Part shown: in pieces, positions 45,938 to 57,345 of the stretch
Layout: each line of letters begins with the position of its first letter
Numbering within the stretch: position 1 is the first letter of the stretch
Source of the DNA: Komagataeibacter xylinus
GTDB lineage: Bacteria; Pseudomonadota; Alphaproteobacteria; Acetobacterales; Acetobacteraceae
Assembly (NCBI RefSeq): GCF_004302915.1
Contig: NZ_QQBI01000021.1
Location: forward strand, 1-57,345
Length of the DNA stretch: 57,345 nt
Direction of reading: 5' to 3'
Notes under the pieces: model-generated
What the model saw: only the letters and a program-made list of their open reading frames with translations
Databases searched by the model: none
What the model was told of the DNA's origin: nothing
Program-made: the position numbers and the translations under genes

Positions 45938-47185
45938 TCAGGCCGCGTTGACGAGCCTGCTGCCACCTCGGGTCAGTTCCCCGATCAGTTGATGGTAGCG
46001 CGCCATATAGTCCTCCATGGCCAGGGTTTTTACGGCATGGGCACGGACATTGGCCCGCAGTTGCGCGGCCATCTCTCCATCCTCGAGCAGTTCCACCACG
46101 CCCTGCGCAATGCGCCGTGGCGCGAGGAAGGGCACAAGCCGCGCGGTGCGGCCATCGTGCAGGAATTCCTGCACCGGCGCGGTCTGGCTACCCACAATCG
46201 CGCAGCCACAGGCCATGGCCTCACGCAGGGACCATGACGCAACAAACGGGTATGTCAGGTAGACATGCGCGTCCGATCGCTGCAGCAGGCGGCGGAAATC
46301 GTCATAATCCACCCTTCCCGCAAAATGCACGCGCCGCATGTCCAGCACGCTGCCGAGTTCGGCCAGCATGTGCTGCCGCCATGTCTGCCCACCCGGCGCG
46401 GGGCCGCCATAGCTGACCCCATCACCACCCACCAGCACCACCTGCGCATCAGGCCGCGCCCGCAAAATATGCGGCAGCGCGCGCATGAACACATGAAAGC
46501 CCCGATACGGCTCAAGGTCACGCGCAACATAGGTGACCAGTTTCTCGCCAGGCCGCACCACAACATTGCCCAGCGTGAAGGGGCGCAGGCGGGCCTGCGG
46601 GTCCGGGGCGCAGGTGCGCAGGTCCACCCCTTCAGGCAGCAGGGTCAGGCGCGGGCGCGCCCAGTCGGGATAGGTCGCGTGCTGGAAGCGCGTGGGCGTG
46701 TGCCCCCACCCCGGCAGGGCAAGGGCGAGCAGGTTGAGCGTATTGCGCGCGCGGATGAGCGGCGCCACATCGGGTGCAGGCGCGAATTCGGGGTCGAAGC
46801 CCACATCCAGACCGGTGGGATGATAGAAGAATTCATAATAGCCCAGCAGCGGCACGCCGGGATACACATCGGGCAGGTCCAGCATCTCGCCCCAGCCATG
46901 GTGGCCGATGATGATATCGGGCACATAGCCCAGCCCCCGCAGGGTGCGGGCCGCCTTTGCTACGGCCGCCGCGCGCTGCATGGCACGGGCGAGTTCCGCC
47001 ACCGGCCCCGGTGCGGCCAGTTCCGGCGCGGGCGGCAGGCGGTAGGACACCCGGCGCACGCCCGCCATATGGGACGTTCCTGATTCGCTGATGAAAATGA
47101 TCTCGTTACCGCCCTGCCCGCGCAGGTCGCGCAGCAGGTGCAGGAACTGGGCCGGGAAATTCTGGTGCACGAACAGGTATTTCAT
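45938..47185 (-). CDS. GT4-type glycosyltransferase
   Basis: A 415-residue GT-B glycosyltransferase. MKYLFVHQNFPAQFLHLLRD is the start of an N-terminal donor/acceptor lobe. VTYVARDLEPYRGFHVFMRAL and VVLVGGDGVSYGG lie in the C-terminal nucleotide-sugar lobe, with SLREAMACGCAIVGS as the GT4 E-x7-E-type region. It is the last gene of the secretion/glycosylation operon, 28 bases after the ChW-like gene. It may add a sugar to the protein exported by the operon; this is inference. Confidence 0.88.
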   Translation of the reverse strand: MKYLFVHQNFPAQFLHLLRDLRGQGGNEIIFISESGTSHMAGVRRVSYRLPPAPELAAPGPVAELARAMQRAAAVAKAARTLRGLGYVPDIIIGHHGWGEMLDLPDVYPGVPLLGYYEFFYHPTGLDVGFDPEFAPAPDVAPLIRARNTLNLLALALPGWGHTPTRFQHATYPDWARPRLTLLPEGVDLRTCAPDPQARLRPFTLGNVVVRPGEKLVTYVARDLEPYRGFHVFMRALPHILRARPDAQVVLVGGDGVSYGGPAPGGQTWRQHMLAELGSVLDMRRVHFAGRVDYDDFRRLLQRSDAHVYLTYPFVASWSLREAMACGCAIVGSQTAPVQEFLHDGRTARLVPFLAPRRIAQGVVELLEDGEMAAQLRANVRAHAVKTLAMEDYMARYHQLIGELTRGGSRLVNAA

Positions 47186-47213
47186 GCACGCCCTCCGCGC
47201 CCGCCACTTTCAG

Positions 47214-48347
47214 TCATGAACCGGCCAGCACGCCGGGCCTGCGGGGTGTTGCGCCCCCACGCCGGGGCGACCGGGCGGGCGAGACCGCCGCGCCACCGGG
47301 CTTGCGGTGCCACCACGGCACGGGCTGGTCCGGGCTGGCCTGCGCCTTGCGCTTTGTTTTTTCAGGCGGGGCACCGTCCTGCGCGGCCTCTACCGCGCCG
47401 GATGGCTCCCGCCGTTGCTGCGGCGGCACGCGCCTGCCCCGCCTCACCCGCCCCACAGGCGGCGCGGGGGTTACGGGCGGGGCCAGCGCATCGAGCACCT
47501 GATCTTCCATGCCTGCATCACCCTGCGCCGGGGCAGGCGGTTGAACCGGAGCCCGGGGCCGCACCACCACGCGAAAAGCCTCGAGCGGGGCCTGTGTTGC
47601 GGCCATGACCGGCGCATCCGCCACCGGCCCGATGCGGCTGCCATCGGTAAAGCTGGCTTCCACCTCACATTCGCAGGCTTCAGCTGCCGCCCCCTTCAAC
47701 CGCACGCGCAGGCCCAGCAGGGGCAGCGCCATGCCCCGGCTGCCACAATACGCGCCCCCGCTCACCCAGGGCGAGAACCAGTCCTGCCCCAGTATGGCCT
47801 GATATTCGAGATCGGTCGGGGCCACGCCGGGGGCGGGCTGGATGGCAAACCCCTCCAGCCAGTGCCCGCTCCCGCTCTCGCCCATCCATGCCCCAAGCGC
47901 GGCCCGCACATCGCCACGGCGCTGGATATGGGCGATCATGCTACCCGGCGCGGGTGCCGCCTGCTCACTGCGTGCCGGCTCGGTGGGAGGCCGGGCTGCG
48001 ACCGGGCTGCCAAGGCGCACAATCTGCAGGGCAGGCAGTTCACCGGGTGCGTCGTGGTCGCGATAGGTGGTGACCAGCACCGCACCGCCCCCTGCGGCCA
48101 CCATGACCAGCGCCGCGCCGCCGCTGGCCCCGATCCAGCCCTGCGCGTCAAACGTGCTGACCCGCACCCCATCATTGCCCGGCGGCACGCTGACGCGCAT
48201 GCCCGTCAGCCTCCCGAAGCGCGTGGGGGCGGACAGGGCCGCATGAAACAGGCAGTACAGACCCGCTTCAAGCTGCATGAGCCGTGCGGTGGCCTGCACG
48301 GCATCGGGCTTTGCCACGGATGCGGGTTCGCTTGCGGTCTGCATCAT
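47214..48347 (-). CDS. unknown protein with ChW-like (hydrophobic-W) motif
   Basis: A 377-residue protein of unknown function. The middle part has DWFSPWVSGGAYCGSRGMAL followed by PLLGLRVRLKG; this W-x3-W-V-x-G-G-x2-C-G-x2-G pattern resembles the ChW repeat first noted in Clostridium surface proteins. The last 120 residues are Pro/Arg/Lys-rich and disordered. No signal peptide was found at either possible start. ATG 48347 is used; ATG 48455 would overlap the preceding gene by 29 bases. It lies between two glycosyltransferase genes. Confidence 0.65.
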   Translation of the reverse strand: MMQTASEPASVAKPDAVQATARLMQLEAGLYCLFHAALSAPTRFGRLTGMRVSVPPGNDGVRVSTFDAQGWIGASGGAALVMVAAGGGAVLVTTYRDHDAPGELPALQIVRLGSPVAARPPTEPARSEQAAPAPGSMIAHIQRRGDVRAALGAWMGESGSGHWLEGFAIQPAPGVAPTDLEYQAILGQDWFSPWVSGGAYCGSRGMALPLLGLRVRLKGAAAEACECEVEASFTDGSRIGPVADAPVMAATQAPLEAFRVVVRPRAPVQPPAPAQGDAGMEDQVLDALAPPVTPAPPVGRVRRGRRVPPQQRREPSGAVEAAQDGAPPEKTKRKAQASPDQPVPWWHRKPGGAAVSPARSPRRGGATPRRPGVLAGS

Positions 48348-48426
48348 GGCCGCTCGACCAGCAAAAGGAACGGCACGGGCGCACGGACAAAGGCGGGATA
48401 GGTCAAGGCGGGCCTCTCGCAACGGG

Positions 48427-51360
48427 TCAGGAACAGGCCGGGCGTGCAACGTCATGCCCGATCCGTGCATAAGACAGCAAAAACGTATTCAATTGGTGAA
48501 CGGGCAGCCCCGGCGGCACGCACGTACCCCGCCCCGTGGCGCGGATGCGCTGCGCGATGGTGCCGATATCAAACGCCACGGCCCGCAGCCCCGCCCGCCA
48601 CAGCAGCGTAAGCGTGAAGCACCATGTCTCTGGCCAGAGTGCTGGCATGAAGCCCACATCGCCCGCACAGCCCCGCACCAGCGCCAGGCCATCCGCCTCG
48701 TCATAGTGGCCGGTCACGAACACGCGGCCCGTTTCCAACAGGGCGGCATCATCCGCCGTGTGGCCCACCACCACGAATTCCAGCGGCAGGTCACGTGCGC
48801 GCGCATCGCGTGCCGCCGCGAGCACGATGGCATGGCCTTTTTCCAGCCCGATCCCCCCCACGATCACCACCCGGCAGCGCTCATTGCGCGGCGGCAGGCC
48901 GGTGGCGGCAGGCGTGGCATCGCGGGCTGCGAACTGCGGCAGGGACTGCGCGGGGCAATCCTCCTCCAGTGCGTGCACATGGGGCGTGACATGAGGGAAA
49001 TACCGGCCCAGCCGCCGTGCGACCTCCGCCGAGGGCACGATCACCCGCCGTGCACCGGCAAGGTCACGGGCCGTGTCGCGGCGCAGGCGCGCCACATCCC
49101 GCTCCCCCACCACGGAGCCGAGTACGCCCACGCAGGCTGCGCAGCCCGCCGCATCCGGCTCGCCGCAATACCGCCCCGCAGGCCCCACCAATGTGACGCG
49201 CGGGCACAGCCCGGCATAGTCATGCACGTAATACGCATAGGGCAGCGCCAGCACGCGGCACAAAGCCCGCGCGCGCCCGTCGTGGCCGAGTTGATGATGG
49301 ATCTCGACCCTTGCCACACCCAGCGCACGCAGCAGGGCCACAAGGGCCTGCCCATCGGCGGGCCAGGCAAAATGCAGGTCGGGCCAGTGGGCATCGGGCC
49401 TGCCATCGCGCAGCACGAACCCATCGGGCGTGGGGTCGAGCACGACTGGCAACTGCCCTGCCGCCAGCCCGTGCCGTGCCCGTTCCCGCACCACGCGCGC
49501 CACCCCGCCGCCTTCACCGTGGCTGACCAGCAGCACCGCCACCCCCAACGCCACTGCCGCCGCACCCCGGCACCACACCACAACCGACAGCCTGTGCCGC
49601 GCCACCCGCAGCGGGTCGGCCTTGGCATGAGCGGCCACCAGCGCGTCATAACCGGGAAAGAGCCGGTTCAGAATCCAGATATTGCGCCGCAGCAGGTCAG
49701 CCCGCGCGCTGGCAAACGACACGCCCCCCACATGCCCCACGAACGCGCCCACCGCCGCCCGGTGCCGCCAGCCACTCAGGCGCGCGCGCATGCAGAAATC
49801 ATTTTCCTCCCCATACCCCCGGCCGAACAGTTCGGGGCGAAAGGAGCCGGTCTGGCGCAGGCAGTCGTGGCGGATGAACATGCAGAACCCATGCGCGGTG
49901 GGAATCTCCACATCCTGCCCGCCATTGGCCCGCCTTGCCGCGTCCATCAGCCGCCGCACCGCCGCAGGGCCGCCCGCCAGCGGTGCGGGGCGTGCAGGGT
50001 CGGGCCATGTGAGGATGGTGGCATCGTTGGAAAGCGGCGAGACGGTGCCCGTATCGGCGCGGGCATAGGCGACTAGCCGCATTTCCTCCAGCCAGCCGGG
50101 TGCCACCAGCGTGTCGCTGTTGAGCAGCACTACGTCACGGCCCTGCGCATCGGCCAGTGCGGTGCACACCGCAGCCGGATAGCCCCGGTTACGGGCATGG
50201 CGGCGCAGCACGATACGCCCCTGCCCTGCCAGCGCATCCAGCGCGCGGGCAAGGTCAGGGTCCGGCGTGGCGTCATCCACCACCATGATCTCGGTCGTGG
50301 CCTGCGCCGGGGCCGCAAGGCTGGCCAGCACGCTGTCGATACAGGCCAGCGTGCCCGCGCGGTCGGCATAGACGGGAATGACGATCCGGCATTGCGCGGC
50401 ACATGGCGGCACGCGCACCGGCGCCACGCCACGGCCACGCATGGCGGGAAAGACGGGCCGGGCGGCAGGAAGCCCGATGGGTAGCGGCGAGCCGGTCAGG
50501 TCCCGCCCATCAGGCCGCACGACCCGCACGCTGCCCCCTGTCGCCATGGCCTGCCATGGCACATGAAACGTCCAGACCGGCAGGCCGGGGCCTGCCGCGC
50601 TGTCCTGCGCGCCCGTTTTGCCGCGCATGAGCGTGAGGGGCCGCCTGCCCTGGGCATCGATCAGGTGCAGCACGGGGCAATGATCAGGCCGGGCGGGCAT
50701 GAAGGCCCAGCCTGCAAGCCCATGGTCATGGGGCCACATGGCACCAAGTGTTGCGCATAAGGCCGCGCGGTCGGGGCGACCACCAAGCAGCACGCTGCCC
50801 GCATGGCGCACCGCGATCTCGCCCCCATGCCGCCAGTGCGGGGGCAGCCGCCAACTGCCGCCCGGTTGCGTCGGGCAGGGCTGGCCATCAAGCATGATAT
50901 CGGGCAGGGCGCGCGCGGGCAGGTCGCCCCAGCGCAGCACGCCATCGGGGTCAAGCGCGCACCAACCGGGCCGCCCCGTATGCTGGCATACCAGCGTTGC
51001 CGCGCGGCACAGGTCGGGGTCGAAGCCATAACGGGTAAAAAAACGCTCGAGCGCCGCCGCCGCACGGTTCCATGCCCCGGCACCGCACAGGGCCAGCACC
51101 AGCAGCTTCAGCCCTGCGCGGAATTCCTGCCCGGCCATGAGCCGCTCGATGGCCTGCGCGGCCTGCATCGCCTGCCCGGCGCCCAGCAACACCGCCGCCT
51201 GCGCGAAACGGACCGCCCTGTCGCCCGCAGCCATGCGGGCGGCGCGCGCCATCCACGCCACGGCCTGCGCATGCTGCCCCGCCGCCGCCAGCCGCCAGGC
51301 CTGCCGCATGGCGGCGGTGACCTCTTTCTCCGGCACGGCATCGGGCTGCTGGCCGTTCAT
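48427..51360 (-). CDS. large two-domain glycosyltransferase (GT2 + GT4)
   Basis: A 977-residue protein. Residues 1-110 look like TPR-type helices. A GT2 domain follows at about 325-585: CRIVIPVYADRAGTLACIDS, MVVDDATPD, LLNSDTLVAPGW (DxD region) and YGEENDFCMRAR (acid catalytic region). A second, GT-B domain covers about 605-977 with LLVSHGEGGGVARVV and VVIVGGIGLEKGHAIVL. Two linked activities could build a short glycan. The ATG overlaps the stop of the SEL1 gene (ATGA). The target is unknown; context suggests a secreted protein. Confidence 0.88.
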   Translation of the reverse strand: MNGQQPDAVPEKEVTAAMRQAWRLAAAGQHAQAVAWMARAARMAAGDRAVRFAQAAVLLGAGQAMQAAQAIERLMAGQEFRAGLKLLVLALCGAGAWNRAAAALERFFTRYGFDPDLCRAATLVCQHTGRPGWCALDPDGVLRWGDLPARALPDIMLDGQPCPTQPGGSWRLPPHWRHGGEIAVRHAGSVLLGGRPDRAALCATLGAMWPHDHGLAGWAFMPARPDHCPVLHLIDAQGRRPLTLMRGKTGAQDSAAGPGLPVWTFHVPWQAMATGGSVRVVRPDGRDLTGSPLPIGLPAARPVFPAMRGRGVAPVRVPPCAAQCRIVIPVYADRAGTLACIDSVLASLAAPAQATTEIMVVDDATPDPDLARALDALAGQGRIVLRRHARNRGYPAAVCTALADAQGRDVVLLNSDTLVAPGWLEEMRLVAYARADTGTVSPLSNDATILTWPDPARPAPLAGGPAAVRRLMDAARRANGGQDVEIPTAHGFCMFIRHDCLRQTGSFRPELFGRGYGEENDFCMRARLSGWRHRAAVGAFVGHVGGVSFASARADLLRRNIWILNRLFPGYDALVAAHAKADPLRVARHRLSVVVWCRGAAAVALGVAVLLVSHGEGGGVARVVRERARHGLAAGQLPVVLDPTPDGFVLRDGRPDAHWPDLHFAWPADGQALVALLRALGVARVEIHHQLGHDGRARALCRVLALPYAYYVHDYAGLCPRVTLVGPAGRYCGEPDAAGCAACVGVLGSVVGERDVARLRRDTARDLAGARRVIVPSAEVARRLGRYFPHVTPHVHALEEDCPAQSLPQFAARDATPAATGLPPRNERCRVVIVGGIGLEKGHAIVLAAARDARARDLPLEFVVVGHTADDAALLETGRVFVTGHYDEADGLALVRGCAGDVGFMPALWPETWCFTLTLLWRAGLRAVAFDIGTIAQRIRATGRGTCVPPGLPVHQLNTFLLSYARIGHDVARPACS

Positions 51361-53102
51361 CTGCCCGCCAGTTGCGCGTAATCGGCCCGCGCGGCCTCAA
51401 GCCCCTGTGCAAGTGCGTGTTCCAGCCAGTGACGGGCCTGTGCAATATCCACGCGCCCGGCCAGCCCCCGCGCCAGGTAGCGCCCCGCCATCATCTGTGC
51501 CAGCGCATGGCCCGCTTCTGCCGCCTGAAGGAACCAGCGCAAGGCCTGCGCCCGGTCGGGCGTGATATCATGCCCGCCGCCATACAGCGCACCCAGCGAG
51601 AACATGGCCTCCGCCCGGCCAGCGGCGGCAGCTTTGTGATACAGGGCCAGCGCCCCCGCATGGTCGCGCGGGCCGCCACGCCCCTCCAGCCGGAGTTGGG
51701 CTGCGGCAAGGCAGGCCTCGGGCAGGCCCTGCATGGCCGCCTGCTCCAGCCACTGCCGCGCCTGCGCCGGATCAGCCACCACGCCATCACCTTCGAGCAG
51801 CATGCGGCCATGCCAGTAGCCGGCATTGACCACGCCCGCGCGGGCGGCGCGTTCCATCCACATGGCGGCCGCCACGCGGTCCATGGGTCGCCCCACGCCT
51901 TCATGCAGGCTGACCGCGAGGTTGAAAGCGGCAACCGGGTCACCCGCCCGTGCCGCCGGTTCAAAATCAACCAGGGCGGGAGTGGTGGCGGGCTGTTCCG
52001 CCCCGCCAGCCAGCAGGCCAGCGGCAAGGTCGCTCATGGCGGTGACATCACCAAGTTCCGCCGCGCGCTCCAGCCACTGGCGGGCCAGTTCAGGGTCAGC
52101 CGCCACGCCGCGCCCCTGCTGGTACAGCACGGCCAGCATGCGGCAGGCCAGCGCATGACCGTGTTCTGCCGCCATGCGGTACCACGCCACCGCTTCATGA
52201 TCGGCGGGAATGGCCGCCTCGCCACGTGCATGCAGGTCGCCCAGCAGGGCAGCGGCCTCGCGGTCGCCGGCACGGGCCGCGCGGCGCAGCCATGTCTCGG
52301 CCATCAGCCTATTGCGCGAACCATCCGCCTGGTCCTGCAGCAACAGCGCGCCATAGCGGGCCTGCGCGGGGCGCACACCCTGTTCTGCCGCCCGCCCGTA
52401 CCACAGCGCGGCCTGACCCGTGTCACGTGCCATGCCCCAGCCGCGCTCATGCAACAGGCCCAGCATGTACTGCGCGGTGGGCAGGCCGCCTTGTGCCGCC
52501 CGGTGCAGGGCGGCCACCGCATCGGGGTCGGTGCCCGGTGGTTGCGCCGCAAGATGCGCCACCGCCAGCCCCAGGTCCCCCTGCGGGCACCCCGCCTGTG
52601 CCGCGCGCATACACCATTCGCGTGCCGCCCGCACATCACGCACGCTTTCTGGCCCGCAGGCCAGCAGGTAGCCATACAGCGCCTGTGCATCGGGCAGGCC
52701 GAGGGTGGCCGCACACTGCGCCCAGCCGGTGGCGGCAACAGGGTCGGGCCAGCGTTCGATGCCTGCGGGCAGGCTTGCGGGCAGCAGGCCATCACCCCCC
52801 CTGCCATCAGGCGGGTCAACCAGCAGCATGAGCGCCATGGCAAAACAGGCTTCGGCATGCCCGGCGGTTGCGGCACGGTGCATCCAGCGCACGCCCTCGG
52901 CCGGACTGCGGGGTGCGCCACAGCCTTCCAGATAGGCACGGGCCACCTGGTACTGCGCGGCCACCATGCCCTCCTGCGCCAGCCTGCCCAGCAGGGCAAA
53001 ACCCTGCGGGGCGCGGCCTTCATGCTCCAGCCAGCCCATGGCGCGCTGCAGGCGCCCCTGCGTGGAGAACCTCTCCCGCCAGCGCGAAAGCAGCTTGTAC
53101 AT
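51357..53102 (-). CDS. SEL1-like repeat protein
   Basis: A 581-residue protein made of about a dozen SEL1/TPR-like repeats of some 36 residues. Units such as AQYMLGLLHERGWGMARDTGQ and ACRMLAVLYQQGRGVAADP show the A-x-x-x-L-G-x-x-Y/H-x-x-G-x-G-V core. No signal peptide. Such proteins are scaffolds. It is flanked by hlyD (15-base gap) and the large glycosyltransferase (4-base overlap), so it may hold glycosyltransferases near the exporter; this is inference. Confidence 0.88.
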   Translation of the reverse strand: MYKLLSRWRERFSTQGRLQRAMGWLEHEGRAPQGFALLGRLAQEGMVAAQYQVARAYLEGCGAPRSPAEGVRWMHRAATAGHAEACFAMALMLLVDPPDGRGGDGLLPASLPAGIERWPDPVAATGWAQCAATLGLPDAQALYGYLLACGPESVRDVRAAREWCMRAAQAGCPQGDLGLAVAHLAAQPPGTDPDAVAALHRAAQGGLPTAQYMLGLLHERGWGMARDTGQAALWYGRAAEQGVRPAQARYGALLLQDQADGSRNRLMAETWLRRAARAGDREAAALLGDLHARGEAAIPADHEAVAWYRMAAEHGHALACRMLAVLYQQGRGVAADPELARQWLERAAELGDVTAMSDLAAGLLAGGAEQPATTPALVDFEPAARAGDPVAAFNLAVSLHEGVGRPMDRVAAAMWMERAARAGVVNAGYWHGRMLLEGDGVVADPAQARQWLEQAAMQGLPEACLAAAQLRLEGRGGPRDHAGALALYHKAAAAGRAEAMFSLGALYGGGHDITPDRAQALRWFLQAAEAGHALAQMMAGRYLARGLAGRVDIAQARHWLEHALAQGLEAARADYAQLAGR

Positions 53103-53117
53103 CTACCCCCCCCCCGC

Positions 53118-54572
53118 TCAGGGTTCGCGCATGCCGTCGGTCACGGCAGGCAGCAGGCGGTTGAGCAGGTACTGCATCATGGTGCGCCGCCCGATATGGA
53201 TATCAGCCTCGACCGGCATGCCCGGCTGCGGGTGGAAGAAGGGTGGCACGCCATGCAGGGTGTAACGGTCGATGGACAGGCGCACGCGGTAGAAAGCGTT
53301 CATCGGGTCGCCATCTTCCTCGCCCGTCTGCGCGCCGGCCCCGCCTGCGTGGCCTGAGGCATCGGTAAACGCATCAGGGCTGATAACACGCACCGTGGCA
53401 TCGCCGCCGCCATATTGCGTGTAGGGAAAAGCCGAGAATTTGAGCAGCGCATGATCGCCCGCGCGCACATAGCCCGCATCCACTCCGCGCAGCGTGGCCT
53501 CGACATCAAGCGTGGCGGCAGCGGGCACCAGTGTCATGAGCGGGCTGGCGGCCTGAATGACCGAGCCTGCGGAAAGATGGGCGATGCTCAGCACCACCGC
53601 ATCGCGGTCGGCGCGCATGATGACAAGGTCATGGTGCAGCATGGCCTTGCTGTAGCTGCCCTCGGCATCGGCCAGACGGTGCTGGGCCAGGGCCAGGTCC
53701 TGGTACACGGTGGCGTGCCAGTTGCTGGCATAGCCATCGCGCTGCGCCGTCATGCCATCAAGACGCGCGCGCGTGCTGTCCGCCTCGTGCCGGGCGGAAA
53801 CCTGCGAGCGCACCACCTCCATCAGGCTGTCCTGCGCTGCCAGCGTGGAAAGCCTGCTGCCCACCTGCTCGTGCTGCAGGCGCATGCGCATGTCCTGCAC
53901 GTCACGCGCCACGCGGGCGCGGGCGGCATACATCGCGGCACTGGCCTCATAACCCTGCAACTCGCTTTTCAGCCCCGCGATCTGTCGGTCGTAATTGGCC
54001 ATCTGGGCGGTATATTCGGCCTCGCGCCGCAAAAATGCCGCTGCCTCCTGCACGGAAGCGGGGTCGTTCACATCCGCCCTGTAGGGCTGGCCTGCGGCCT
54101 CGGCAGTGCGGCGGGCCACCTCGGCGCGATAGGCCATGACCTGGCGGCGCAGGTTGGTCACGTCGGCATCGGTCATGGTGGGGTCGAGGCGGGCCAGCAC
54201 CTGCCCCTTGCGCACGGTGTCGCCCTCATGCACGTCGATCGAGCGGATGATCGCGGTCTCGAGCGGCTGGATGACCATCGTCTCGTCAAACGGGGTGAGC
54301 CTGCCATTGACACTCACCACCCGGTCGAGCGGCAGGAAGGTCATGACCAGCAGCCCCGCCCCTGCAAGGGCCGCGATCAGCCAGACCACGTAACGCGCGG
54401 CATCCGACGGCGGCAGGCCGACCAGTGCTGCACTGGGCGAATAAAAGGACAGCAGCGCCGGCGGCAGGTCGGTTGGCACATCCGCCGTGGGCGGTGGCAG
54501 CACCGACAGGATCGCGCCTTCGGCAGGGCCGCCCTGCGCATCGGGTGGGGGGAGCAGCGCCTGCCCGCTCAT
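53118..54572 (-). CDS. HlyD-family type I secretion adaptor
   Basis: Periplasmic membrane-fusion protein of 484 residues. One membrane segment (about 62-82) follows a Pro-rich cytoplasmic tail. LDRVVSVNGRLTPFDETMVIQPLE is the lipoyl-like start, a long coiled-coil hairpin covers about 135-330, and the C-terminal beta-barrel ends with HPQPGMPVEADIHIGRRTMM, the HlyD-type end. Its ATG overlaps the ABC stop (ATGA). It links the ABC exporter to an outer-membrane TolC protein, which is not in the window. Confidence 0.93.
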   Translation of the reverse strand: MSGQALLPPPDAQGGPAEGAILSVLPPPTADVPTDLPPALLSFYSPSAALVGLPPSDAARYVVWLIAALAGAGLLVMTFLPLDRVVSVNGRLTPFDETMVIQPLETAIIRSIDVHEGDTVRKGQVLARLDPTMTDADVTNLRRQVMAYRAEVARRTAEAAGQPYRADVNDPASVQEAAAFLRREAEYTAQMANYDRQIAGLKSELQGYEASAAMYAARARVARDVQDMRMRLQHEQVGSRLSTLAAQDSLMEVVRSQVSARHEADSTRARLDGMTAQRDGYASNWHATVYQDLALAQHRLADAEGSYSKAMLHHDLVIMRADRDAVVLSIAHLSAGSVIQAASPLMTLVPAAATLDVEATLRGVDAGYVRAGDHALLKFSAFPYTQYGGGDATVRVISPDAFTDASGHAGGAGAQTGEEDGDPMNAFYRVRLSIDRYTLHGVPPFFHPQPGMPVEADIHIGRRTMMQYLLNRLLPAVTDGMREP

Positions 54573-56383
54573 GCCGCATCTCCGTGCATGGCGGTGAGCG
54601 ATCCGGTTTCAGCCAGGCTGTTCTGCTGCATCCACAGCGTGCGGTAGATGTCGCAGCGCCCCAGCAGTTCGGCATGCGTGCCGATATCGACCACCCGCCC
54701 ATGGTCGAGCACGCAGATCTGGTGGCATTCCACCAGCGAGGCCAGCCGGTGCGACACGATGACCATGGTGCGCCCGCGCGCGAGGTGGCGCAGGTTGGCG
54801 TTGACCACCGCCTCGCTCTCGGGGTCAAGGGCGGAGGTGGCTTCATCGAGGATCATGAGCTTGGGGTCGGAAATCACGGCGCGCGCAATGGCGAGGCGCT
54901 GGCGCTGGCCGCCGGAAATGTTGGTCGACCCCTCCTCGATCCAGGTATCGAAGCCCGCGGGCATGCGCTCGATGAACTCCTCCGCCCCCGCAAGGCGGGC
55001 GGCGCGCACCACGTCCTCCAGCGTCAGGCCCGGTCGGCCCGCGATGATGTTGTCGCGGATGGTGCCGCGAAACAGGAAGTTGTCCTGCAGCACCACGCCA
55101 CAGGAGCGGCGCAGGTAGGTCAGGTTGATCTCGCGCAGGTCGATGCCATCAAGCCGCAGATGGCCGCTATAGCTGCGGCTCACCCCCTGCAGCAGCCGCG
55201 TGATGGTGGACTTGCCCGAGCCGCTGCGCCCCACCAGCCCCAGCATGGTGCCCGCCGGCACGCTGAAGGTGATGTCATCCAGCGCAGGCGCCGATGCACC
55301 GGGATAGGTAAAGCACACATTGGCGAATGACAGCGCGCCGTGCAGCGGCGGGCGCAGGCCGGTGGTGAGCGCGCGGGTCTCGGTCGGGCGGTTGAGCACG
55401 GAGCCGGTCTCGGCGAGGGCGGCGCGCACCTCGTTAAGGTCATCGATCAGCCGGGCCATGCTCACCAGCGGCGCGGCCACGCGGCCGCCCAGCATCATGA
55501 ACGCCATGAGCGCGCCTGCCTCCATGCCCGAACTGGTGGAGGTAATGGCCATGTACGCCCCGATGAGGATGATGCCGCGATTGATGAACAGGTCGAGCGG
55601 CATGACCGCCGTGCCCACCCAGTTGCCCATGCGCCCGGCATCAAGCGAGGCGGTGACGACATCGGCGGTTTTTTCATCCCACACCGCGCGGCGCACCGGC
55701 TCCAGCGCCAGCGTCTTGACGGTGCGGATGCCGGCCACCGTTTCATACAGTGCGGCGCTGCGGGCCATCTCGGCGCGGATCTGCCGGTTGATCAGCCGCC
55801 CCACGGTGGGCATGGCCAGCAGGATGATGACGCCAATCAGTGCTGCGCCCACAACGGTCATCCACGCCAGCGTGGTGCTGAGCCAGAACAGGAAGGGCAG
55901 CACCACCAGCAGGGTGAACAGGTCAAGGAAAGTGCCCAGCAGCTTGCCGGTCATGAACTGCCGCACCTTGTAGATGGCGCTGATGCGACCAATGATGTTG
56001 CCCGCCTGCTCGCGCTCGAAAAACTCCAGCGGCAGGGCCAGCAGCCGGTCGAACACCGCAAGCGAGATGCGTGTATCGAGCCGCGTGGTCAGCACCAGCG
56101 TGATCTCGCGCCGCGCATGGGTGAGCAGGATTTCATACACCGCCATGACCACGACCAGCCCGGTGAGCGAGACCAGCGTGGCCATGGAATGGAAGTTCAC
56201 CACCCGGTCGATCACCTGCATGACGATGAGCGGCGGGAATATGGCCAGCACGCTGATCACGATGGAGGCCAGCACCACATCACGCAGCAGCCTGCGCTCG
56301 CCCAGAACGAGGCGGCGCAGCCATGCGAAATCGACCGGCGGCTCGGGGCGCGTGCTGTCATGCTGGCCGCGCACCAGCAGCAC
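54569..56383 (-). CDS. type I secretion ABC transporter (HlyB-like), 5' end cut by IS1380-type element
   Basis: Inner-membrane exporter: six-helix membrane domain (about 30-300), then an ATPase with GLVGRSGSGKST, NISGGQRQRLAIAR and LMILDEATSALD. From the GTG at 56383 it has 604 residues. The frame stays open upstream to 56431, encoding LEAVWTGDVLLVRGQ, the end of a peptidase-like (C39-like) domain seen in HlyB types (about 700 residues). An in-frame TGA at 56434-56432 then coincides with the start of insertion-element DNA. So this is probably the 3' part of a broken gene, perhaps still expressed from the GTG. The first codons have no clear ribosome-binding site. Confidence 0.88.
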   Translation of the reverse strand: MLLVRGQHDSTRPEPPVDFAWLRRLVLGERRLLRDVVLASIVISVLAIFPPLIVMQVIDRVVNFHSMATLVSLTGLVVVMAVYEILLTHARREITLVLTTRLDTRISLAVFDRLLALPLEFFEREQAGNIIGRISAIYKVRQFMTGKLLGTFLDLFTLLVVLPFLFWLSTTLAWMTVVGAALIGVIILLAMPTVGRLINRQIRAEMARSAALYETVAGIRTVKTLALEPVRRAVWDEKTADVVTASLDAGRMGNWVGTAVMPLDLFINRGIILIGAYMAITSTSSGMEAGALMAFMMLGGRVAAPLVSMARLIDDLNEVRAALAETGSVLNRPTETRALTTGLRPPLHGALSFANVCFTYPGASAPALDDITFSVPAGTMLGLVGRSGSGKSTITRLLQGVSRSYSGHLRLDGIDLREINLTYLRRSCGVVLQDNFLFRGTIRDNIIAGRPGLTLEDVVRAARLAGAEEFIERMPAGFDTWIEEGSTNISGGQRQRLAIARAVISDPKLMILDEATSALDPESEAVVNANLRHLARGRTMVIVSHRLASLVECHQICVLDHGRVVDIGTHAELLGRCDIYRTLWMQQNSLAETGSLTAMHGDAA

Positions 56384-56431
56384 GTCGCCTGTCCAGACCG
56401 CCTCAAGCCGCAGGGCATCGACGCGGAAATC

Positions 56432-57345
56432 TCACGGAAGGGTTGTACATCGGGTCAGATTATGAAAAAGTCTGTTTTGTAGAAAAGATGTTTTCATAAG
56501 CAATAAACGAACCCGATGCAGACAGAGTGTAGCGCAGGCGCGTATGACTTTCCAGCCTCCTGTGGACGGCGTGTAGTAGCCCATTTTGATGGAGGTCGCA
56601 TGAGTTCGGATGGCGGTGTCATTCTGCTAAAGCAGGTCGATGATCGTCTGGGGCTCAGTCGCCGTTTTGCTGCCTGTTTTCGCGATGAGCGGCATCCTGC
56701 CTTTGTGGAATACCGGGTTGAAGACCTCGTCCGTCAGCGGATCATGGGACTGGCCCTGGGCTACGAAGACCTCAATGATCATGATGCCTTACGTCATGAC
56801 CTGATCTTTGGTCTGGCGTCGGGCCGTCTTTCAGGAGGCCGGGCCAACTGTGCCGCACTGGCTGGCAAATCCACCCTGAACCGGCTGGAGCGTAGTGGCC
56901 ACGAGGCAGACCGTTACTGTCGTATCATTGCTGATCATGAGGCTCTGGCCGGACTGTTCGTCACACTCTTCATGGACCAGCATGACCGCGCGCCTGCCCG
57001 GATCATTCTGGATGTGGATGCGACCGACGATCGTATCCATGGTCATCAGGAAGGCCGGGCCTTTCATGGGTATTACGGCCATAACTGCTATCTGCCGTTA
57101 TACATCTTCTGCGGAGACCATCTCCTGAGCGCCAGCCTGCGCACGGCAGACCGGGACCCGGGGAACGAAGCACTGGCAGACATCAGCCGGATCGTGAAAC
57201 AGATCAGGAACCGCTGGCCCCGGGTGCGTATCCTTATCCGCGGAGATAGTGGCTTCGCCCGCGACAGCCTGATGACATGGTGCGAAGACAACCACGTTGA
57301 CTTCCTGTTCGGGCTTGCAGGAAACACCCGCCTGTATGACCGGAT
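56432..57345 (+). mobile_element. IS1380-family insertion sequence, left part
   Basis: Begins close to 56432, where the ABC reading frame is broken, and runs past the window edge. It carries an IS1380-type transposase in the opposite direction to the operon. IS1380 was first described in acetic acid bacteria. The left terminal repeat should lie in the first tens of bases; the right end and target duplication cannot be seen. Confidence 0.85.
56516..57345 (+). CDS. IS1380-family transposase, partial at window edge
   Basis: At least 276 codons, no stop before the edge. The ATG at 56516 begins MQTECSAGAYDFPASCGRR, then HFDGGRMSSDGG and LALGYEDLNDHDALRHD, typical of IS1380. Catalytic acids lie in ILDVDATDDRIHGHQEG and LIRGDSGFARDSLM. 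GYYGHNCYLPLYIFCGDHLL is also a family stretch. Later ATGs (56600) would drop the conserved N-terminus. The DNA is somewhat less GC-rich than the operon. Confidence 0.93.
   Translation, partial: MQTECSAGAYDFPASCGRRVVAHFDGGRMSSDGGVILLKQVDDRLGLSRRFAACFRDERHPAFVEYRVEDLVRQRIMGLALGYEDLNDHDALRHDLIFGLASGRLSGGRANCAALAGKSTLNRLERSGHEADRYCRIIADHEALAGLFVTLFMDQHDRAPARIILDVDATDDRIHGHQEGRAFHGYYGHNCYLPLYIFCGDHLLSASLRTADRDPGNEALADISRIVKQIRNRWPRVRILIRGDSGFARDSLMTWCEDNHVDFLFGLAGNTRLYDR

Follow-up and report, generated by a model that had tools for sequence, protein, structure and literature searches.

A conserved acetobacterial operon links a type I exporter with glycosyltransferases and, probably, with a small RTX-like cargo

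Genes for type I exporters commonly, though not obligatorily, have the genes for TolC and for their cargo beside them. They can also lie next to genes for sugar polymers, as do atrB/atrD in sphingan producers and prsD/prsE in rhizobia. In the accessory Sec system, glycosylation enzymes are encoded together with a dedicated exporter for one serine-rich-repeat adhesin. RTX proteins and their secretion via HlyB/HlyD have been reviewed, and that review and a second account describe the cyanobacterial RTX surface proteins SwmA (130 kDa) and oscillin (646 residues, 46 repeats) as reported or thought to be glycosylated (PMC3034196, PMC2943079). In Caulobacter, flagellin is O-glycosylated in the cytosol ahead of export by FlmG, a modular transferase in which the N-terminal domain selects the protein (PMC7591256). 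Here we analyze a six-gene operon in a 57,345-nucleotide stretch of Komagataeibacter xylinus DNA (contig NZ_QQBI01000021.1, positions 1 to 57,345; the window), in which an ATP-binding cassette (ABC) exporter and its adaptor are encoded together with sugar transferases, and a family of RTX-like proteins that may be the cargo.

The operon comprises, in order of transcription, genes for an ABC exporter of the HlyB kind, a HlyD-type adaptor, a Sel1-repeat protein, a double glycosyltransferase with family 2 and family 4 domains (GT2+GT4), a ChW-domain protein, and a single-domain GT4 enzyme. A first-pass annotation, made from the sequence alone, had delimited this unit, and its coordinates, common strand, and domain calls were all upheld. 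ABC/HlyD and Sel1/GT2+GT4 overlap by 4 bp each, 15 bp separate HlyD from Sel1 and 28 bp ChW from GT4, and the GT2+GT4/ChW overlap measures up to 44 bp, depending on an uncertain start codon. We consider it probable, with moderate confidence, that the operon specifies a type I secretion pathway with cytosolic glycosylation of a small RTX-like cargo.

The exporter half of this proposal is anchored by HlyD, which scores 321.3 bits against the curated type I adaptor model TIGR01843 (cut-off, 208.65) and is 98 to 99% identical to the HlyD of K. xylinus, K. nataicola, and K. melomenusus records. All 30 operon-positive Acetobacteraceae that we examined (18 + 12) gave a single match above that model's cut-off, at the operon's own HlyD. 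For the ABC protein, both transmembrane and nucleotide-binding domains were found by Pfam and the ATPase motifs are preserved in the aligned copies; the best NCBIfam model for the window's truncated copy was TIGR01846 (HlyB), at 517.5 bits and thus below the cut-off of 725.55.

The candidate cargo is a family of proteins of about 450 residues, nearly free of cysteine, and rich in Ser, Thr, Gly, and Asn; they carry RTX-like repeats and end in a type I-like C terminus. In the window's genome it is a 449-residue protein on another contig (G000:C18), the sole match there to the RTX repeat model PF00353 (35.3 bits; cut-off, 23); other members scored 22.4 bits (L174) and 111 bits (L096). The listed members contain 0 to 0.2% Cys, 0.2 to 6.2% Lys plus Arg, and 15 to 27% Ser plus Thr. 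Seven cargo proteins share both ends, MxxVTVxGA near the start (the N-terminal motif being MxxVTVxGAxG-like) and a C terminus like GGNTTxxLxDxxKITFVGVTDLKA. The C-terminal part aligned, below cut-off, with that of the polyurethane-esterase and serralysin models, which we take to represent type I substrates, for L170 and L096 and not for L173; the L170 protein also matched RTX regions of solved proteins. A PF00353 search of 21 genomes gave a match at E ≤ 0.01 in 14, in some of these in other proteins, and the model was rejected as the sole mark of the cargo because five operon-bearing genomes have none. Two profiles were used instead: A1, from seven proteins, all of operon-positive genomes (cut-off, E ≤ 1e-12), and A3, with 31 members from 30 genomes, 29 of them ChW positive (cut-off, E ≤ 1e-38). 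Among the five PF00353-negative genomes, A3 detected three at E ≤ 1e-38, G087 more weakly, and G047 not at all. As a separate observation, the cargo gene of genome G022 (L205 3835-5115) adjoins a gene for a 1,267-residue GT2-like protein and lies near one for a 917-residue GT2GT4-like protein.

At its cut-off, A3 matched 60 of 69 ChW-positive and 1 of 21 ChW-negative genomes of the family, a count that is partly circular because the profile was trained mostly on ChW-positive genomes. With one genome per genus, the contrast was 42/51 versus 1/21 (Fisher P = 6e-10), and among held-out ChW-positive genomes 32 of 40 matched (14 of 22 outside the window's genus). It persisted at looser cut-offs (62 versus 3 genomes at 1e-30, 63 versus 3 at 1e-25), the weaker A3 matches in operon-lacking genomes being taken as general RTX similarity. 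A1 gave a similar picture, with 57/69 versus 1/21 at E ≤ 1e-12 and 34/46 among genomes both held out and outside the genus. The operon-negative genome G034, with a different curated HlyD and 81 RTX matches, had only a weak A3 match (2.8e-15). Because the operon's HlyD is the sole curated type I adaptor in the operon-positive genomes examined and the cargo family co-occurs with the operon, we infer that the operon's exporter would be the natural route for the candidate cargo.

The first-pass annotation had envisaged a large, glycosylated surface protein encoded next to the exporter. Part of this stood: a secreted-type repeat protein does co-occur with the operon, often amid glycosyltransferases. 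It is, however, small and encoded elsewhere, and no giant repeat protein adjoined the operon in 60 Acetobacteraceae loci with flanks of up to about 10 kb. Four long non-operon frames that were scanned as possible giant neighbors proved to be methionine synthase (L030, L071) or had no Pfam match (L054, L066). Nor was there a match in the 60 loci to a TolC-like gene, searched for with a hidden Markov model (HMM) derived from just two OEP proteins.

Glycosyltransferase genes also occur near the cargo gene. Of 38 cargo loci, 16 encode such enzymes no more than two genes away, as one or two proteins of about 780 to 1,270 residues; the six that were scanned are double enzymes of the types GT4+GT2, GT4+GT4, and GT2+GT2 (two each). 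When only HMMs of the operon families were used, 12 of 145 genes within two of the cargo matched, compared to 3 of 343 further away (P = 6e-5; 12/38 loci). One could suppose instead that the exporter secretes an unglycosylated RTX-like cargo while the transferases make a surface polysaccharide to which this cargo binds, the genes being neighbors through a shared role in the matrix. Rhizobial PrsDE, encoded beside exopolysaccharide genes, would be the parallel, and the GT4 proteins do show NCBIfam similarity to exopolysaccharide enzymes such as EpsE, weak and far below cut-off; an RgpF-like match was also seen in one scanned member of c4, a gene cluster present in 10 cargo-region loci. Among the six operon proteins, however, Pfam and NCBIfam detected no flippase, polymerase, priming transferase, or Wzm/Wzt (neighboring genes and the wider genome were not searched), and the TPR, Sel1, and ChW parts, with the GT-ChW fusions described below, are better suited to a protein substrate. 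We regard this alternative as unlikely, with a minor share of the probability.

Several observations weigh against cytosolic glycosylation and export of this cargo by the operon's products. The 60 Acetobacteraceae loci with the operon contain no match to A1 or A3. Nine operon-bearing genomes lack a strong cargo match (G032, G036, G047, G049, G059, G070, G071, G085, and G087), and two of them, G047 and G059, have none even at E ≤ 1e-12. Conversely, G022 (480 contigs, 90% complete) has the cargo without ChW and without a curated HlyD at E ≤ 1e-40. No glycosyltransferase was detected within two genes of the cargo in 22 of the 38 cargo loci, among them three from Komagataeibacter (L170 to L172), and the higher glycosyltransferase rate of 25/145 genes within two of the cargo versus 5/343 further away came from HMMs seeded partly with those same genes. 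G364, from another family, is the single genome in which the cargo adjoins the glycosyltransferase set; its one curated HlyD, however, lies on a separate contig (C97) as part of a distant type I pair of a different sort (24 to 30% identity), so that its cargo-like gene may or may not use this kind of exporter. In 21 of 21 aligned copies, the second Glu of the GT4 motif EX7E is missing from the C-terminal GT4 domain of the double enzyme, which may therefore be inactive or atypical. Finally, an intact ABC homologue (L027), although best matched over its full length by TIGR01846, reaches only 529.8 bits, still below the cut-off. That the ABC protein falls short of the HlyB model even when intact, and that the cargo gene does not adjoin the operon, would both suit an arrangement in which the transferases make a glycan or glycolipid for ABC/HlyD to export and the RTX-like protein takes another route. 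Against such an arrangement speak the curated type I match of HlyD, its being the only such adaptor in the 30 operon-bearing genomes examined, and the co-occurring type I-like cargo, and we give it the lowest probability of the explanations considered here.

The first-pass annotation had treated the six genes as one functional set, and their linkage is indeed kept throughout the family. Of 60 Acetobacteraceae loci, 48, over about 30 genera, hold all six, collinear and on the same strand. These loci came from 20 named records and 40 further genomes (L045 and L051 are one contig, hence 59 genomes). For 10 of the 12 loci without the full set, the ABC end of the operon sits on a second contig; as to the remaining two, a GT2+GT4 gene was seen on a separate contig (L233) for L057 (G049), and none was seen for L064 (G059). 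A HlyD search returned 24 loci, and in all 20 of those from Komagataeibacter, Novacetimonas, Gluconacetobacter entanii, and Neokomagataea the six genes were found in order by tblastn, although a single gene is broken in frame in three of these loci. Such breaks in relatives (L029 9639-10876, also in L008; L037 11469-13164; L041 8153-9935) affect the ChW, Sel1, and ABC genes and reflect decay or sequencing errors. ChW was present in 69 of 147 relatives, every one in the window's family, and HlyD at E ≤ 1e-25 in 89, including all 69 ChW-positive genomes; six further genomes of the family were HlyD positive, five weakly and G086 strongly. GT2+GT4 likewise matched in 69 of the 147 at E ≤ 1e-60, comprising 66 of the ChW-positive genomes (all but G027, G030, and G059) plus G021, G123, and G144. 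As judged from gene content and order, the operon is old and stable in acetic acid bacteria and their relatives. Downstream of the operon in Neokomagataea (L045 18704-19843 and 20534-21349), two proteins look by eye like sugar transferases, the second matching Caps_synth below cut-off only and the first having no match.

The association also extends, in part, to other alphaproteobacterial families (L096, L097, L216 to L219, and L232). In G364 (L096), a cargo-like gene, a TPR-GT2-GT4-ChW fusion, a methyltransferase, and a GT4 gene share one strand, with a further GT4 and a Sel1 gene adjoining on the opposite strand. The ChW relative is fused to the C terminus of the GT2+GT4 protein in both G364 and G334 (L097), which represent two other families; the fused domains match the window's ChW protein at E = 1.5e-33 (L096) and 1.8e-25 (L097) and score 21.5 bits (just below the cut-off of 22) and 30.9 bits, respectively, with the Pfam ChW model. 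A different contig of G334 (L232) opens with a group of ABC, HlyD, and Sel1 genes. The methyltransferase was matched in 12 of 39 genomes of G364's family, and 12 loci besides that of G364 were fetched around such matches (L216 to L227). In L216, L217, and L218, an ABC gene and a response-regulator-like gene stand next to ChW, methyltransferase, and GT4, with HlyD in view in L216 and L218; L219 has ABC, the regulator-like gene, the methyltransferase, and one frame matching both GT4 and ChW, perhaps an assembly chimera. ChW was found without ABC in view on the short contigs L220 and L222, and no ChW-GT4-exporter set was seen in the fetched loci L221 and L223 to L227. The response-regulator-like gene and methyltransferase joined to the set in L216 (3809-4570 and 5704-6297) hint at regulation and at a methylated glycan.

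These outlying sets bear on the explanation that the genes are together through inheritance alone and serve separate processes. In its favor, the operon is largely limited to one family: across the class, just 6 of 385 genomes have a ChW match, and 4 of these 6 belong to that family. Yet the order is kept over so many genera, GT2GT4-ChW fusions exist, and rearranged sets of type I exporter, ChW, and GT4 genes occur in another family, so that we find inheritance alone improbable. Beyond the class, the four other loci from the HlyD search (two Herbaspirillum, Trinickia, and Halodesulfovibrio) have distant ABC/HlyD only. Giant RTX proteins adjoin these in both Herbaspirillum records and in Trinickia, and an OEP (TolC-like) gene does so in the scanned Herbaspirillum (L047) and Trinickia (L048) records, the rest of the operon being absent. 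The Trinickia locus (L048 148-12228), a possible betaproteobacterial parallel, runs RTX protein, ABC, HlyD, OEP, and then a PF12000 GT4 with 40% identity to that of the window.

Regarding the remaining operon proteins, a hydropathy scan of the Sel1-repeat protein showed no signal-like hydrophobic N terminus, and it is probably a cytosolic scaffold. The AlphaFold model of the GT2+GT4 protein (mean pLDDT, 81.9) has seven TPR-like helices at residues 11 to 128; the window protein has no TPR match there, and TPR_19 is above cut-off in the L096 homologue (26.9 versus 25). By Foldseek, the GT2 domain is closest to polypeptide GalNAc-transferases, but other GT-A enzymes tie, and the C-terminal GT4 domain is below the Pfam gathering cut-off in the window copy. 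A second homologue of the double enzyme, 36% and 34% identical, adjoins other large proteins in L112 and L113 (G060:C13 and G017:C102). The ChW match scores 23.8 bits (PF07538; cut-off, 22). Since the structure model of that protein reaches a confidence of just 62 and nothing in the PDB matches it clearly, the model says little and no new fold is claimed.

Taken together, a HlyB-like ABC protein and HlyD would form an exporter, which the operon would also supply with a cytosolic glycosylation machinery of its own. Unfolded cargo would be held by the TPR and Sel1 repeats while a glycan is assembled on it in the cytosol by the GT2+GT4 and GT4 enzymes, helped in some genera by the additional double transferases whose genes adjoin that of the cargo. 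The ChW protein would cooperate with the GT2+GT4 enzyme, perhaps by binding the cargo or the nascent glycan. The exporter would then recognize the C-terminal RTX-like signal of the cargo, and the product would leave through an outer membrane channel encoded elsewhere, unlinked to the operon. More tentatively, and at clearly less than even probability, we can imagine a dedicated cytosolic O-glycosylation complex of TPR-GT2-GT4, ChW, Sel1, and GT4 that is physically coupled to the type I exporter, with the new small RTX-like family forming a main glycoprotein coat on the surface of acetic acid bacteria and ChW acting as an intracellular reader of cargo or glycan, the whole being a type I counterpart of accessory Sec. 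If glycosylation of the cargo is borne out, Sel1, ChW, and double-glycosyltransferase proteins conserved across the family would gain a function, for which a testable cargo is now named. The family includes cellulose-producing and vinegar bacteria, and one may speculate that a surface glycoprotein might affect pellicles, acid tolerance, or insect association.

The strain of the window is itself a natural interruption of the exporter. An insertion sequence spans positions 56440 to 57345 and terminates the contig, cutting away the N-terminal ~120 residues of the ABC protein; the other five genes are open (Table 1). Residues 2 to 130 of the intact ABC homologue have their counterpart, at 88% identity, elsewhere in this genome (contig G000:C29), the stretch fetched from it (L167) stopping 70 bases past the ABC homology.

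Table 1. The exporter-glycosyltransferase operon and the adjoining insertion sequence (window coordinates)
Feature	Position	Strand	Basis and remarks
ABC exporter, HlyB kind	54569..56431	-	Pfam PF00664 + PF00005; transmembrane and ATPase domains present; 5' end missing
HlyD-type periplasmic adaptor	53118..54572	-	TIGR01843
Sel1-repeat protein	51357..53102	-	PF08238 in 9 stretches (4e-64)
GT2+GT4 double glycosyltransferase (TPR-like helices, beta region, GT2, GT4)	48427..51360	-	Pfam, AlphaFold model, fold matches
ChW-domain protein, two beta domains	47214..48470	-	PF07538, structure model
GT4 glycosyltransferase, PF12000 group	45938..47185	-	PF12000 3.2e-48
DDE transposase gene of insertion sequence	56516..57345	+	PF13701 1.2e-88; runs off contig

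The literature searched, which leaves out most subscription journals, gave no case in which such glycosylation is combined with type I secretion. Glycosylation followed by export through a dedicated machine is, by contrast, already known, so what would be new, as far as that literature goes, is the pairing with type I secretion. With RTX type I secretion the system shares a HlyB-like ABC protein, a HlyD above the curated cut-off, and RTX-like repeats with a signal-like C terminus in the candidate cargo; it differs in that sugar transferases, Sel1, and ChW adjoin the exporter, where cargo and TolC-like genes were not found. SwmA and oscillin resemble the candidate cargo as RTX-type surface proteins, whose glycosylation in our case is predicted, and differ in belonging to another phylum, the accessible portions of their descriptions giving no operon of this composition. 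FlmG likewise is a modular cytosolic transferase, comparable to the double enzyme with its N-terminal repeat domain as putative substrate binder; it is a different transferase serving flagellar export and, in what is accessible of its description, acts without a type I exporter. The sphingan and rhizobial loci also place a type I exporter next to glycosyltransferases, but there the transferases make free polysaccharide. Accessory Sec, for its part, is Gram positive and SecA2 based, with the cargo in the same cluster. If our proposal is correct, type I secretion would join the export routes that bear their own cytosolic protein glycosylation.

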